Part shown: positions 2,361 through 63,276 of the stretch, one piece after another | Position numbering within the stretch: position 1 is the first letter of the stretch | Layout of the letters: the number at the start of each line of letters is the position of its first letter | From: Anaeropeptidivorans aminofermentans | GTDB lineage: Bacteria; Bacillota; Clostridia; Lachnospirales; UBA5962 | Direction of reading: 5' to 3' | Assembly (NCBI RefSeq): GCF_940670685.1 | Contig: NZ_OW711693.1 | Coordinates: 1,178,001-1,242,000 of the forward strand | DNA length: 64,000 nt | Translations under genes and position numbers: made by a program | The notes under the pieces: model-generated | Databases searched by the model: none | What the model was told of the DNA's origin: nothing | What the model saw: only the letters and a program-made list of their open reading frames with translations

Positions 2361-4337
2361 ATGAAAAAGTTATTTTTGTGGTTTTCTTGCCTGTTGCTTT
2401 CAGTAAGCGTTTTTTCCTATAAAGCTGAGGCTAGTGAAATATCAGACATTAATGGCCACTGGGCCGAGGCTGTAATGAGAGACTGGAGGTCTAAAGACTA
2501 TATTTCCGGTTATGCAGACGGAAGTGTTCGCCCGGATAATCTTGTTACAAGGGCAGAATTTTTTGCCATGGTAAATAAGCCCTTCGGCTTTATCTATTCG
2601 TCTCCTATTAATTTTTCTGACGTAAGATACGGTTCATGGTACTACAATATCATAAGCACAGCCGTAGCTGCAGGATACGTTTCAGGCTACAGTGACGGTA
2701 CAATACAGCCCGACCGCTATATAACAAGAGAAGAAGCCGCCGTCATGCTTTGCAAGGCCGTAGGCCTTGTACCCTATGAACCGGGGGCTGATATATATAA
2801 GGATTCTGCCATTAGCCAGTGGAGCAGGCCCTATATAGGGGCAATATCAAACGCAGGTATAATGCAGGGATATTCCGATGGGACATTTCGCCCCTTAGGA
2901 ACCATGACAAGGGCTGAGGCTGTTACATCGATAAATAATGGGCTGATGAGAAGAAACCAGAACATAGGCTCTTTCGTTCAGCCTGTGGAAAATCAGCAGA
3001 TAAGCAGCGGCCTTACGGTAATTACCCCCAACACAGGAACAAATACTCAAAGCAATTCTTCTTCAAGCAATAGCCAAGGCTGGCAGGATATTGAGGATTT
3101 TGAAGTAGTAATAAGCGCTTCATCCTACGGCTCTTCCAGAGATGACAAATACATAAACGGCAACGTAAGAATAGACGCCAATTCAACTACCGTAAGAAAC
3201 ACAGAAATCACAGGAGACTTACTTATTTCTTCATCGTCAAAGGGAAGAGTTACCCTTGATAAGGTATCCGTAAGCGGAACCATTTATGTAGAAGGGAAAT
3301 CAAGGCTTGTTTTAAGCGACAGCGACGTTTCGGACATTTTAGTCCGGTCAAGTAATTCCGACGTAATATTATCGGCGGAAGGAGAGACCACCGCAGGAAC
3401 CGTATATTTATATTCAGGTGCCGAAATCTCCGAGGGAAAGCTTAAAAAATCTTATTACGGCTTTGAAGATATTGTGATAGAAGACTCTGTTAAAAATAAT
3501 TCCAGATTTGAATTTTCAGGCGATTTTAATCAAATCGATATCTATGCTTCCAGAATAAAATTCATATTTACCTCCGGAACCATATCCAGCCTTAATATTG
3601 AAGACACTGCCGAAAGAGGAACTTATGACATTCATTCAGGAACTACCGTGGATACGGTGGATATATATGGCCAAAATTCTTCCTTTTCAGGCCGAGGCCG
3701 TATTAAATATGCCAATGTATATGCTAAATATGCTTATTTTTCCGTAAAGCCGGATACGGTTTATAATGATTACGATTATGATACAGGCTCAGGAAGCGTA
3801 AGTTACGGCGACTACAACCTTACGGTATATGTGGAAGATGAAGACGGTGACGACCTTGAAGATGCAAGAGTTACCATAAAAAGAGAAGGCTATTCTTCAG
3901 AAGATTGGGAAAGAACCAATTCCGCCGGCAGAGCTTACTTTGGCGATTTATATAATGATTATTACGATATAACCGTGGAAAAAAGCGGATATACTACAGA
4001 AACAAAGAGAGTTAATGTAAGGTATGACGATACGGAGATAAGGATAACGCTTCGGGAATCAAATTATAAAAAAACAATATTTACCGTTTTTGTTACAGAA
4101 GTAGATACAGATGGAGAGTATGTTTTTTTACCTGGGGCAAAGGTAGTTCTTAAAGTAGGAACATCTACTGTGGAAAAAATTACAAGTGCTGTAGGCATGG
4201 TCGTATTTACAGACTTGGATATTGGCAGATATGATATTACCATATCTAAGGACGGATATGAAAGCGAGACGGGGCAGATATTAGTTTCTTCAAACGAGGC
4301 AGATAATTTGTTAACTTTAGCTTTGATTAAAAAATAA
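2361..4337 (+). CDS. S-layer homology (SLH) domain surface protein
   Basis: A 658-residue secreted protein. A Sec signal peptide (about residues 1-25, cut after AEA) is followed by three SLH domains at about 28-72, 85-133 and 145-194, each with the GYSDGT-type turn and TRAE motif. SLH triplets anchor proteins to pyruvylated secondary cell-wall polymers. After a Ser/Asn-rich linker (about 205-245) comes a beta-rich stretch of repeated short strands, then two Gly/Asp-rich beta-sandwich repeats at about 490-565 and 575-655. These resemble carboxypeptidase-regulatory or PEGA-like domains (ARVTIKREGY, TVEKSGY). There is no catalytic motif, so a structural role is likely. GGGAGGT lies 7 bp before the ATG. 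It is monocistronic, ending at a strong bidirectional terminator. Confidence 0.88.
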   Translation: MKKLFLWFSCLLLSVSVFSYKAEASEISDINGHWAEAVMRDWRSKDYISGYADGSVRPDNLVTRAEFFAMVNKPFGFIYSSPINFSDVRYGSWYYNIISTAVAAGYVSGYSDGTIQPDRYITREEAAVMLCKAVGLVPYEPGADIYKDSAISQWSRPYIGAISNAGIMQGYSDGTFRPLGTMTRAEAVTSINNGLMRRNQNIGSFVQPVENQQISSGLTVITPNTGTNTQSNSSSSNSQGWQDIEDFEVVISASSYGSSRDDKYINGNVRIDANSTTVRNTEITGDLLISSSSKGRVTLDKVSVSGTIYVEGKSRLVLSDSDVSDILVRSSNSDVILSAEGETTAGTVYLYSGAEISEGKLKKSYYGFEDIVIEDSVKNNSRFEFSGDFNQIDIYASRIKFIFTSGTISSLNIEDTAERGTYDIHSGTTVDTVDIYGQNSSFSGRGRIKYANVYAKYAYFSVKPDTVYNDYDYDTGSGSVSYGDYNLTVYVEDEDGDDLEDARVTIKREGYSSEDWERTNSAGRAYFGDLYNDYYDITVEKSGYTTETKRVNVRYDDTEIRITLRESNYKKTIFTVFVTEVDTDGEYVFLPGAKVVLKVGTSTVEKITSAVGMVVFTDLDIGRYDITISKDGYESETGQILVSSNEADNLLTLALIKK

Positions 4338-4357: not shown

Positions 4358-4398
4358 AAAATACCCCTTTATTTCTTATTAGAAATAAAGGGGTATTT
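4358..4398. terminator. Bidirectional terminator between SLH gene and lyase
   Basis: A perfect 18-bp stem, AAATACCCCTTTATTTCT with its complement, closes a TATT loop. The A and T tracts at the stem base allow it to work on both strands, for the converging SLH gene (+) and lyase gene (-). Confidence 0.85.
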
Positions 4399-4432: not shown

Positions 4433-5884
4433 TTACAGCCCGGAAGGCATATCTTTTTTAAACTTTTCACAAAGCTTTTCCTGCCAGTCGGTTTTTGCTT
4501 TAAGCTTTCCTAAGAAAAATCTTAAGGTTTCAGGTTCTTCGGTAAATTCAAGGCCGCCTATTAAATGGCGGTTTTCAAAAAGCCAGGATACACGGTCTGC
4601 AACAAATTTAACCTGAGAAAGGGTGAAAACTCTTTTTGGGAGAGCAAGGCGTACAAGCTCCATGCTCGCAAGCTGCTCGCTTCCGTCGGGATTTCTCTGT
4701 TCAGACATGGTTCCTCTTTCCATTCCTCTGACACCGCTTGCAATGTAGATGGCAGCGGCCAATGCGCCGGCAGGGTATTCTTCCTGAGGGATATGGTCTA
4801 CAAAGCGGGAAGCGTCAATATGACAGCCAAGGCCTCCGGCAGGCGTTACTACAGGAACGTTCTTTTTCATAAGTTCTTCGCATAAGGCATTAACAAATAA
4901 TGGGGTCTGGCTTATTACATCAATATCAAGGGTTTCTATAAGCCCTACTGCCAGTGCTTCCATTTCACGGATACTCATGCCGCCATAGGTAAGAAAGCCT
5001 TCAAATAAAGGAACCAATGTTTTTAAGCTGTCGAAATGATTTTGATTATTTGTAACGATTCCGCCGCCTCTTGCACAGCCGAGTTTTCTTGCAGAAAAGT
5101 AGATAATATCAAACATCTGGCCGATTTCGCTTGTAATTTCTTTTAAGGTTTTATCTTTGCAGCTTTCGTCTTTTGTTTTTATAAAGTAAAGATTATCGGC
5201 AAGAAGGCTTGCATCAAGGATTGAAAGAAGGCCCTTTTCTCTGCAGAAATCAGTTACCTCTTTCATATTGGATAAGGACACAGGCTGACCGCCTATGAGA
5301 TTTGTTCCGGCTTCAACACGCACAAAGGATATTTTTTCGTTTCCAAGCTCGCAATGAAGCTTTTTAAGCTTATCCATGTCTATATTGCCCTTAAAGGGGC
5401 AGTCACTGTCTATATTAAGACCTTCATCTTTCAGTATTTCTTCTACTGAGCCGCCTAAGCGGGTAATATGGGCTTTTGTTGTCGTAAAATGAAAATTCAT
5501 AATAGCTGTAGAATCCTCTTTTACAAAGGCTTGGGCCAATATGTTTTCACAGGCTCTGCCCTGATGCGCGGGAAGGAAAAATTTCGTCCCGAAAACCTCT
5601 TTCAAGGCTTCTTCCAGTCTGTAAAATGTTTCGCTTCCGGCATAGCTGTCGTCTGCAACCATCATAGCAGCATATTGCTTGTCACTCATGGCATTGACGC
5701 CGCTGTCGGTAAGCATATCAAGAAAAACATCTTTGTTTTTAAGAAGAAAAGTATTGTTTCCTGCTTCTTGGATTGCTTCAAGCCTTTCGTCAACGGAAAT
5801 TAAATTAAGCTTTTGAACCATCCTCACTTTGTGCATTTCGAGAGGAATGTTTTCACCCGAGAAAAATGATACTGTGTTATTCAT
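4433..5884 (-). CDS. Tyrosine phenol-lyase/tryptophanase family PLP enzyme
   Basis: The 483-residue protein is a beta-eliminating lyase of fold-type I. These enzymes cleave tyrosine to phenol, pyruvate and ammonia, or tryptophan to indole. It resembles tyrosine phenol-lyase (TPL) more: the LTDSGVNAMSDKQ, DDSYAGSETFY, HQGRACEN, NFHFTTTKAH and IGGQPVS blocks match, and GVRGMERG keeps the Arg (Arg381 in the Citrobacter enzyme) that marks TPL. The PLP lysine is in SARKLG, where TPL has SGKKD. The DATR segment of TPL is DASL here, so the Arg contacting PLP is lost. About 20 extra C-terminal residues are present. The ATG at 5884 follows TGGAGGT; the open frame upstream of it is leader RNA. A tyrosine-type T-box precedes it. 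Substrate unproven. Confidence 0.85.
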   Translation of the reverse strand: MNNTVSFFSGENIPLEMHKVRMVQKLNLISVDERLEAIQEAGNNTFLLKNKDVFLDMLTDSGVNAMSDKQYAAMMVADDSYAGSETFYRLEEALKEVFGTKFFLPAHQGRACENILAQAFVKEDSTAIMNFHFTTTKAHITRLGGSVEEILKDEGLNIDSDCPFKGNIDMDKLKKLHCELGNEKISFVRVEAGTNLIGGQPVSLSNMKEVTDFCREKGLLSILDASLLADNLYFIKTKDESCKDKTLKEITSEIGQMFDIIYFSARKLGCARGGGIVTNNQNHFDSLKTLVPLFEGFLTYGGMSIREMEALAVGLIETLDIDVISQTPLFVNALCEELMKKNVPVVTPAGGLGCHIDASRFVDHIPQEEYPAGALAAAIYIASGVRGMERGTMSEQRNPDGSEQLASMELVRLALPKRVFTLSQVKFVADRVSWLFENRHLIGGLEFTEEPETLRFFLGKLKAKTDWQEKLCEKFKKDMPSGL

Positions 5885-5894
5885 AATGTACCTC

Positions 5895-6205
5895 CATAGA
5901 ATTAGTTGTGCCCTATGGAAAAAAGCATAAAAAAAGCTCTCGTCCTTGGGCCATTTACCCAAGGGACGAAAGCAAAGCTTCCGCGGTACCACCCTTATTA
6001 CGGTATTATTACCGTCACTTAATTAAACAGGTCATATAAACCCTTGCCCAATAACGGAGGCATCCGTATATGCCTACTAAAGATATTCAGCATATCGGCT
6101 CAAGAGTGTATTTATATATAACATACGGGTTTTGCTCGCACCAACCGCAAAATCTCTGAATCCGGCCTAGTTATATTTTTCTCTCTGTCTCAGCCTTTTA
6201 ATATT
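5895..6205 (-). promoter_or_regulatory. T-box riboswitch with tyrosine (UAC) specifier
   Basis: Read on the minus strand, all T-box landmarks are present. Stem I has a CAGAGA bulge and a GGTTGGTGCGAGC distal loop. A UAC codon at 6110-6108 sits directly before ACTCTTGAGC, the usual specifier position. The conserved AGTAGG linker and TCCGTTA follow. The T-box AAGGGTGGTACCGCG (complement at 5983-5997) comes before the terminator. Known T-boxes read uncharged tRNA by codon-anticodon pairing and permit read-through when the tRNA is uncharged. The specifier assignment rests on position in the leader and has not been folded computationally. Confidence 0.9.
5929..5973 (-). terminator. T-box terminator hairpin
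   Basis: A long stem (GCTTTCGTCCCTTGGG with CCCAAGGACGAGAGC) is followed by seven T on the minus strand. It overlaps the segment that would form the antiterminator with the T-box sequence, as in canonical T-box leaders. Confidence 0.88.
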
Positions 6206-6209
6206 TAGG

Positions 6210-6238
6210 ATAATATCATATAGACATTTATATGTCAA
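6210..6238 (-). promoter_or_regulatory. Sigma-A promoter of the T-box/lyase transcript
   Basis: On the minus strand a perfect TTGACA (6238-6233) is separated by 17 bp from TATTAT (6215-6210). Transcription would start about 7 bp downstream, just before stem I of the T-box. Confidence 0.85.
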
Positions 6239-16095: not shown

Positions 16096-16185
16096 AAAGC
16101 TGATACCTTCTGCGACAATTTATCACAGAAGTCATCAGCTTAATAAGCGGTTTTGGCAATTGCCATGGGAGAACTTCATTCCCAG
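16096..16185 (-). promoter_or_regulatory. Fluoride riboswitch (crcB motif)
   Basis: On the minus strand the aptamer reads GGGAATGAAGTTCTCCC, a linker with a TGGCAATTGCCA palindrome, AACCGC, and GCTGATGACTTCTG. This matches the fluoride aptamer order: P1 hairpin with GAAGT in its loop, the AA-CYGC strand, then GCUGAUG followed by a strand that pairs back with the loop as a pseudoknot. The 3' part, AAGCTGATGACTTCTG, can alternatively pair with CAGAAGGTATCAGCTT and form a terminator followed by TTTTGTTTTTT. Fluoride binding would therefore favour read-through. Confidence 0.9.
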
Positions 16186-16189
16186 AGAA

Positions 16190-16219
16190 AGTATATCATA
16201 AACATAGGATGAATTTCAA
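16190..16219 (-). promoter_or_regulatory. Promoter of the fluoride riboswitch transcript
   Basis: On the minus strand TTGAAA (16219-16214), 18 bp, TATACT (16195-16190). The expected transcription start falls at the GGG that opens the aptamer. Confidence 0.75.
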
Positions 16220-57366: not shown

Positions 57367-58891
<1,525 letters not shown>

Positions 58892-59005
58892 AAAAGTAGG
58901 GTAGCACCCAAAAGAATTTGGGTCATTAAACGAAGTTTAATGATTTTGTGAAGCAAAATGCTGAGGAGATAGTTTTGTGAAACAAAACTGTCTGAAGGGT
59001 TTGAG

Positions 59006-59030
59006 TACTTATTATTTAGTTTTGAGTGTT
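59006..59030 (+). other. 3' arm of the 16S processing stem
   Basis: CTTATTATTTAGTTTTGAGTGTTC is the partner of 57190-57216. The spacer before it (58888-59005) has several short hairpins such as CATTAAACGAAGTTTAATG. Confidence 0.7.
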
Positions 59031-59138
59031 CATGTAAATGAATGCTGAAAATAAGTTTTGTTTTTATAGCTACTAGCTTATAGAAACAAAAATAAAATAT
59101 ATCAAGGTTATCTTGTGAAAGCAAGGATAACAAAGCTT

Positions 59139-59255
59139 TCCGGTGGTGATGCGTCTATGGGAAACATCCGTACCCATACCGAACACGACGATTAAGCCAC
59201 AGACGGCCGATGGTACTTGGCGGGAGACTGCCCGGGAGAGTAGGTGGCTGCCGGA
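59139..59255 (+). rRNA. rrf: 5S ribosomal RNA, inside the 16S-23S spacer
   Basis: A 117-nt 5S gene. TCCGGTGG at the 5' end pairs with the CTGCCGGA end. The CCGTACCCATACCGAACACGACGATTAAG loop and GGTACTTGGCGGGAGACTGCCCGGGAGAGTAGG arms are standard. It sits between 16S and the tRNA genes rather than after 23S. No second 5S is found after 23S. Confidence 0.97.
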
Positions 59256-59441
59256 TTCCAATTACATAAAAAAATCAAGGAAGTTTCATCTTTGTTTCAC
59301 AAAGATGAACATTTAGTAAAACATACCGGAAACATGTATGATTTTGCTTCACTAAAAGGGTGAAAGCCCTTGGTTTTTGTTATGTAAAGAGTAATTTAAC
59401 AGCAAGAATATAAATATCAGACGGATATTTATAACTAGCCG

Positions 59442-59515
<74 letters not shown>

Positions 59516-59570
59516 CTTTTCTATTTAAACAATAGAATACTGATTTAAAAGATAATCAGCCGCCTAATAC

Positions 59571-59646
59571 GGGGGTGTAGCTCAGATGGGAGAGCACCTG
59601 CCTTGCAAGCAGGGGGTCACGAGTTCGAATCTCGTCATCTCCACCA
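59571..59646 (+). tRNA. tRNA-Ala (TGC)
   Basis: A full cloverleaf with GGGGGTG acceptor, CTTGCAA anticodon loop (TGC) and GTTCGAATC T-arm. CCA is encoded at the 3' end. Confidence 0.97.
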
Positions 59647-59744
59647 AGGTTGATTATGAATTAACCTGAAAACCCAATTAAATCGTACTAGAAACGTGTG
59701 CGATTAAATCCAACAACTTTTACTAAAGTAAAAGTTATCCGGTA

Positions 59745-59771
59745 CCTTGAAAACTGAATAGAGAGAAGAAG
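59745..59771 (+). other. 5' arm of the 23S processing stem
   Basis: CCTTGAAAACTGAATAGAGAGAAGAAG can pair with CTTCTTTCTCTATTTAGTTTTTAGGG at 63121-63146. Confidence 0.7.
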
Positions 59772-60110
59772 AAAAACAATTTCATCGGAGTGCTTAAGAG
59801 AAGCAGGAGGATGGAGGCTTTGCAAGAAGCGTTCATTCAAATGAAGATTAAAGCATGACGAAAAAAGAAAATGTTAGGTCTGAAATGGTCTCTTGATAAG
59901 TAAATTATTACTTATCGAGAAAAATAAATGTATTACTGAAGAGAATAAATGAAGAGTTTTAAAACCTTAGGGTTTTAATTTAATCCGCAGAATGGGCTTT
60001 GCCCATTGGAGGAAAACAGCGTGTTTCAAGGCTTTTGTAAAAAGCCGCAGGAATAGCTGTTTCTGCCTTCAGTAAATTTCGTAAAAATCGCAAGATTTTT
60101 ACGACACAAA

Positions 60111-63019
<2,909 letters not shown>

Positions 63020-63120
63020 ATAAAAAGGGTATATGAAAATATATCAAAGATGCAAGGCTAAAGAAACAGCTTATCGAAAGATAGCTTACGCTATGGTTAA
63101 GCATCACAATCGTTTCAGAT

Positions 63121-63147
63121 CCTTCTTTCTCTATTTAGTTTTTAGGG
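63121..63147 (+). other. 3' arm of the 23S processing stem
   Basis: CTTCTTTCTCTATTTAGTTTTTAGGG is complementary to 59745-59771. No 5S lies between the 23S end and this arm. Confidence 0.7.
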
Positions 63148-63175
63148 TATTGATTTAATTGAATAAGTTTTTTAT

Positions 63176-63257
63176 GGGGGAATTCCCGAGTGGCCAAAGG
63201 GGGCAGACTGTAAATCTGTTAGCAACGCTTTCGAAGGTTCGAATCCTTCTTCCCCCA
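63176..63257 (+). tRNA. tRNA-Tyr (GTA)
   Basis: An 82-nt class II tRNA with long variable arm. GGGGGAA and TTCCCCC form the acceptor arm, CTGTAAA the anticodon loop (GTA). Its anticodon pairs with the UAC specifier of the T-box at 5895-6205. Confidence 0.97.
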
Positions 63258-63276
63258 TGTCTTTATTTTTTGGAAT

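Follow-up and report, generated by a model that had tools for sequence, protein, structure and literature searches.

The window analysed here is a 64 kb stretch of the genome of Anaeropeptidivorans aminofermentans. On its minus strand it carries a gene for a tyrosine phenol-lyase (TPL)-like, PLP-dependent lyase of 483 aa (positions 4433–5884), which starts with an ATG at 5884 and is preceded by the Shine-Dalgarno sequence GGAGG at 5895–5891. A longer frame of 519 aa with a GTG start (4433–5992) was rejected as the gene start, as it overlaps the leader described below. An inverted repeat, AATACCCCTTTATTTC..GAAATAAAGGGGTATT, noted by eye after the lyase stop codon (4363–4398, not assigned to a strand), is the probable terminator between two convergent genes, and the lyase gene is probably monocistronic. 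The convergent gene (2361–4337, plus strand) encodes an S-layer-homology-type surface protein with repeated beta-rich modules.

The original prediction had placed a strong promoter, a complete T-box with UAC in the specifier position and a terminator ahead of this gene, and each was recovered on the minus strand, within the coordinates stated, in that order and followed by the TPL-like reading frame. The promoter (6238–6210), identified by its match to the consensus, is of the sigma-A type (TTGACA-17-TATTAT) with 11 of 12 matches and a TG before the second hexamer. The T-box leader RNA (6200–5959) aligns with the full length of the RF00230 covariance model (model positions 1–219), scores 132.9 bits against a gathering cut-off of 93 (E value 2.5e-29) and has a fold z-score of −2.8. 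In the covariance-model alignment the specifier triplet is UAC (tyrosine; 6110–6108) in the context AAA-UAC-A, and the antiterminator bulge is UGGU (AGGGUGGUACCGCG; 5991–5988) which, by the rules established for T-boxes, should in principle pair with the discriminator A of tRNA-Tyr. The UAC assignment is supported by this alignment, by the tyrS gene of the same genome, which has its own T-box, likewise with UAC, and by the UAC present in all other lyase leaders that were aligned. The competing intrinsic terminator (5973–5929), which is missed by a simple scan, was detected by folding, with arms at 5973–5958 and 5950–5936, a run of seven U at 5935–5929 and approximately −29.5 kcal/mol for the surrounding 71 nt stretch. 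The model score, the tyrosine specifier, the UGGN bulge and the competing terminator together identify the leader as a T-box and, judging from its sequence, antitermination in vivo would allow read-through into the lyase gene on uncharged tRNA-Tyr.

A cognate effector, tRNA-Tyr with anticodon GUA and discriminator base A, is encoded in the same window (63175–63258, plus strand). It is the last gene in an rRNA operon (57367–63258) with the order 16S – 5S – tRNA-Ile – tRNA-Ala – 23S – tRNA-Tyr, in which the position of the 5S gene between 16S and 23S is unusual. The window also includes a fluoride riboswitch (RF01734, 47 bits; 16119–16192, minus strand) just upstream of a cation/proton-antiporter-like gene (16095–14878, minus strand).

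The lyase was originally described as an enzyme of a tyrosine-degrading type. The likeness to TPL stands, but the lyase lies below the cut-off for that enzyme and the term degrading derives solely from the family name. The window lyase matches Pfam PF01212 (E value 2e-48) and its best-scoring NCBIfam model is the broad PRK13238 'tryptophanase' (570.9 bits). Against TIGR02618, the TPL equivalog, it scores 437.3 bits (curated cut-off 720.7), and it is also under both tryptophanase equivalog cut-offs (329.5 versus 825.8 bits and 392.1 versus 750 bits). The same four families match 21 of 21 orthologues. An AlphaFold model of the window lyase (mean pLDDT 80) has TPL structures as its best fold matches (TM 0.87–0.92). 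The orthologues share 58–70 % identity with the window lyase (92 % in one case) and in a phylogenetic tree they group, with 100 % support, in a clade separate from canonical TPL and from tryptophanase. On sequence grounds, the window lyase is not a canonical TPL and is a member of a distinct subfamily. Members of the clade are found in Bacillota, Pseudomonadota, Spirochaetota, Myxococcota, Fusobacteriota, Elusimicrobiota and other groups, and this spread over many phyla suggests much horizontal transfer.

No conserved neighbour of the lyase gene was found across the gene neighbourhoods compared, which fits a one-gene function. In one genus group of the window genome's order (loci L009, L010, L011, L012, L014 and L028) a lyase gene without a T-box follows a GH5-type glycosidase gene, the stop of which overlaps the lyase start in L010; the glycosidase could release a phenolic aglycone, or the arrangement could be due to chance. 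NiCo riboswitches lie within a few hundred bases to a few kb of the lyase gene at two unrelated loci (L080:5671–5771 and L128:7631–7737). In L016 and L070 the lyase frame is extended by about 100 aa beyond the usual C-terminus, through seemingly non-coding or other-gene sequence, probably because the stop codon was lost in a draft contig.

When other lyases of the clade were surveyed for T-boxes, as had been suggested, the pairing was found to recur among anaerobic bacteria. A T-box above the Rfam cut-off precedes the lyase gene in 18 loci, and a profile search brought the number of relatives with this arrangement to about 30 in all, every one in the Bacillota; a partial match in L123, approximately 450 bases upstream of the lyase, is excluded from the count. 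UAC occupies the specifier column of every specifier-bearing leader aligned. The leaders are of two sequence types, GGUACCGCG and GGUAACACG. Most lyase loci have no T-box, and at least 13 changes of this trait were counted on the lyase tree. These repeated changes and the two leader types indicate that the link between T-box and lyase is not one frozen accident.

The genome, which is 3.76 Mb in one contig, includes 16 T-box matches, the lyase leader among them. The remaining 15 precede leuA, ilvH, an ilvB-type gene, a gene for a trpX-type ABC substrate-binding protein and the synthetase genes valS, alaS, pheS, cysS, serS, metG, proS, thrS, tyrS, ileS and glyS, names that were recognised from the start sequences and not by family search; each of these genes belongs to the synthetase, biosynthesis or transport class. 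The lyase is the only catabolic-looking gene among the 16 targets. A canonical TPL, sharing 41 % identity with the lyase and adjoining a GntR-type regulator, and a tryptophanase, sharing 36 % identity, are also encoded in this genome, and no T-box was found before either.

The T-box form of the lyase was enriched in genomes that lack TyrA (prephenate dehydrogenase, PF02153). In the first set, TyrA was absent from 17 of 24 genomes with a T-box lyase versus 5 of 49 without the T-box (Fisher p 2.7e-7, kinship ignored) and, when only Bacillota were considered, from 17 of 24 versus 4 of 34 (p 5e-6, kinship ignored). A second sample taken alone went in the same direction but was not significant (1 of 4 versus 1 of 18; p 0.34). 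With both samples pooled the figures are 18 of 28 versus 6 of 67, for a naive Fisher p of about 7e-8 that ignores kinship, and most of the TyrA-less genomes are incomplete drafts. Correction for relatedness gave independent pairs in the same direction (4.8 versus 0.2 on average), at a borderline median p of 0.06 when all rows are used and of 0.125 when only Bacillota are. Within the order of the window genome, 71 of 392 genomes are without TyrA. The TyrA-less members checked also lacked prephenate dehydratase, and chorismate synthase was missing from two of the five TyrA-less T-box members checked. These TyrA-less members look like aromatic auxotrophs, in which a tyrosine-destroying enzyme under a starvation switch makes little sense and a tyrosine-making salvage enzyme fits. 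That the lyase simply replaces TyrA as a general rule was considered and rejected, as many lyase genomes, including that of the window, have TyrA.

We lean towards the view that the lyase is a tyrosine-forming salvage enzyme that runs from phenol and is released by the T-box on tyrosine shortage. The transcription-attenuating T-box would sense uncharged tRNA-Tyr, and a shortage of tyrosine would release expression of a stand-alone TPL-like PLP enzyme. This enzyme would then join phenol to the three-carbon aminoacrylate, made either from pyruvate and ammonia or from an amino acid such as serine, and so provide a one-step salvage of tyrosine that is independent of the shikimate pathway and draws on a presumed source of phenol. 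TPL chemistry is reversible, and laboratory work exploits it for synthesis (PMC7431475). Operation in the synthetic direction was one of two options raised in the original prediction, and it is favoured by the company in which the T-box is found, by the enrichment of the T-box form in TyrA-less genomes and by the retention of the phenol-binding residues described below; the direction itself is deduced from these. Against this view, the window genome encodes TyrA as well as prephenate dehydratase and chorismate synthase and so has no obvious need for a phenol route, and its canonical TPL would run the reaction in the opposite direction. Certain residue replacements also count against it.

Residues were compared, in TPL numbering, across 93 subfamily sequences, with one or two gaps at some sites. 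Tyr71, Arg100, Phe123, Thr124, Asp214, Lys257, Met379, Arg381, Arg404, Phe448 and Phe449 are invariant. Leu takes the place of Arg217 and His343, Arg that of Lys256 and Asn262, and Asp that of Glu69, and these replacements are invariant within the clade. We take Glu69 and Asn262 to be K+ ligands in TPL, and the arginine at 262 may stand in for the ion. Met288 is replaced by Phe, as in tryptophanase, and the equivalents of tryptophanase Asp137 and His463 are absent from the lyase, which has Thr and Phe there. Five positions separate TPL from tryptophanase (PMC5805759), and the subfamily is TPL-type at four of them (Thr124, Met379, Arg381 and Phe448), the fifth being position 288. In TPL, the substrate is bound at its phenolic OH by Thr124 and Arg381 (PMC11301627). 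Mutants of TPL altered at Arg381 lose activity towards tyrosine and keep that towards other substrates, and contact with the carboxylate of the substrate is ascribed to the Arg equivalent to Arg217 (PMC3870968).

The second option in the original prediction, another substrate, we consider possible though unlikely. The lyase would then act on some other phenolic or thiol amino acid, or catalyse a racemase- or aldolase-type reaction, with a product that either eases a lack of tyrosine or is required during one. The changes at Arg217, Lys256 and His343 could indeed mean a different chemistry; these PLP-site residues, with Asn262 and Glu69, are invariant in TPL and tryptophanase and replaced throughout the subfamily, Met288 is also changed, and the top score is to the broad PRK13238 and not to the TPL equivalog. 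However, all sequences have the TPL-type residue at four of the five discriminating positions, among them the two that bind the phenolic OH, and the specifier points to tyrosine.

It is distinctly improbable that the enzyme does break down tyrosine while being controlled by a tyrosine T-box, whether it frees carbon, nitrogen or phenol in general starvation or whether uncharged tRNA-Tyr signals something else. Though the family name and the fold agree with degradation, and the direction of the reversible TPL reactions is not fixed by sequence alone, such an enzyme would remove an amino acid at the very moment at which the matching tRNA is uncharged, for the most part in genomes that cannot make tyrosine anew, and the canonical degradative paralogue in the window genome has no T-box. 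The paradox that was originally seen in a degradative lyase controlled by a tyrosine T-box is real if the enzyme degrades tyrosine. A hitch-hiking or decayed T-box, of no consequence for the regulation of the lyase, is very improbable. Such a reading would draw on the patchy distribution of the trait over the lyase tree and on the many lyase loci, the majority, that are without it, but the leaders are complete and above the Rfam cut-off, the specifier, the bulge and the spacing to the lyase are conserved in very divergent leaders, and the window has a strong promoter and a terminator.

The T-box and the TPL-like enzyme are each of a known kind. The leader resembles T-boxes of the tyrosine class (RF00230), typified by that of Bacillus subtilis tyrS, in having a full stem I with UAC, a UGGU bulge, a terminator/antiterminator pair and a tRNA-Tyr with discriminator A, but its target is a TPL-like lyase in place of the usual synthetase, biosynthetic operon or transporter. 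The lyase has in common with TPL (EC 4.1.99.2) of Citrobacter freundii and Erwinia herbicola the fold, the PLP lysine, Asp214, Arg404, Tyr71 and the phenol-binding Thr124, Met379, Arg381 and Phe448; it differs in its low identity (41 %), a score far under the equivalog cut-off, control by a T-box, placement in its own fully supported clade and replacement of Arg217, Lys256, His343, Met288 and the presumed K+ ligands. Tryptophanase (EC 4.1.99.1) belongs to the same Pfam family, shares 35–36 % identity and has Phe at position 288, but the lyase lacks its Asp137 and His463 and falls under both of its equivalog cut-offs. A further parallel is the phenylalanine-4-hydroxylase of the Bacillus cereus group, a T-box-regulated enzyme that forms tyrosine in one step (PMC2494555). 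It too bypasses the TyrA route, as the lyase would if it runs in the presumed direction, but it is unrelated, depends on oxygen and starts from phenylalanine, whereas the lyase is independent of oxygen and would have phenol as its starting compound. No report of the lyase as a T-box target was found in the T-box literature examined, and in the one paper where 'T-box' and 'tyrosine phenol-lyase' occur together the T-box concerns tryptophan biosynthesis only. The openly searchable literature yielded no description of the pairing of the two, of its association with absent TyrA or of the unlabelled subfamily.

More broadly, and tentatively, this widespread, phylum-crossing, TPL-like subfamily, now annotated as tryptophanase, may be a dedicated tyrosine synthase, a one-gene, oxygen-free means for aromatic-auxotrophic anaerobes to use environmental phenol, placed under a tRNA-Tyr T-box in the Bacillota. 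The T-box is an independent, sequence-encoded statement of the use the cell has for the enzyme, and hence makes the long-standing ambiguity of reversible lyases directly testable. If the tyrosine-forming reading is correct, an essential amino acid would be obtained from phenol, a compound commonly regarded as waste from the breakdown of tyrosine, some of the genes that currently carry the tryptophanase label would do the reverse of what it says, and predictions of auxotrophy based on TyrA would be wrong for many bacteria of the termite gut, digesters and the rumen.
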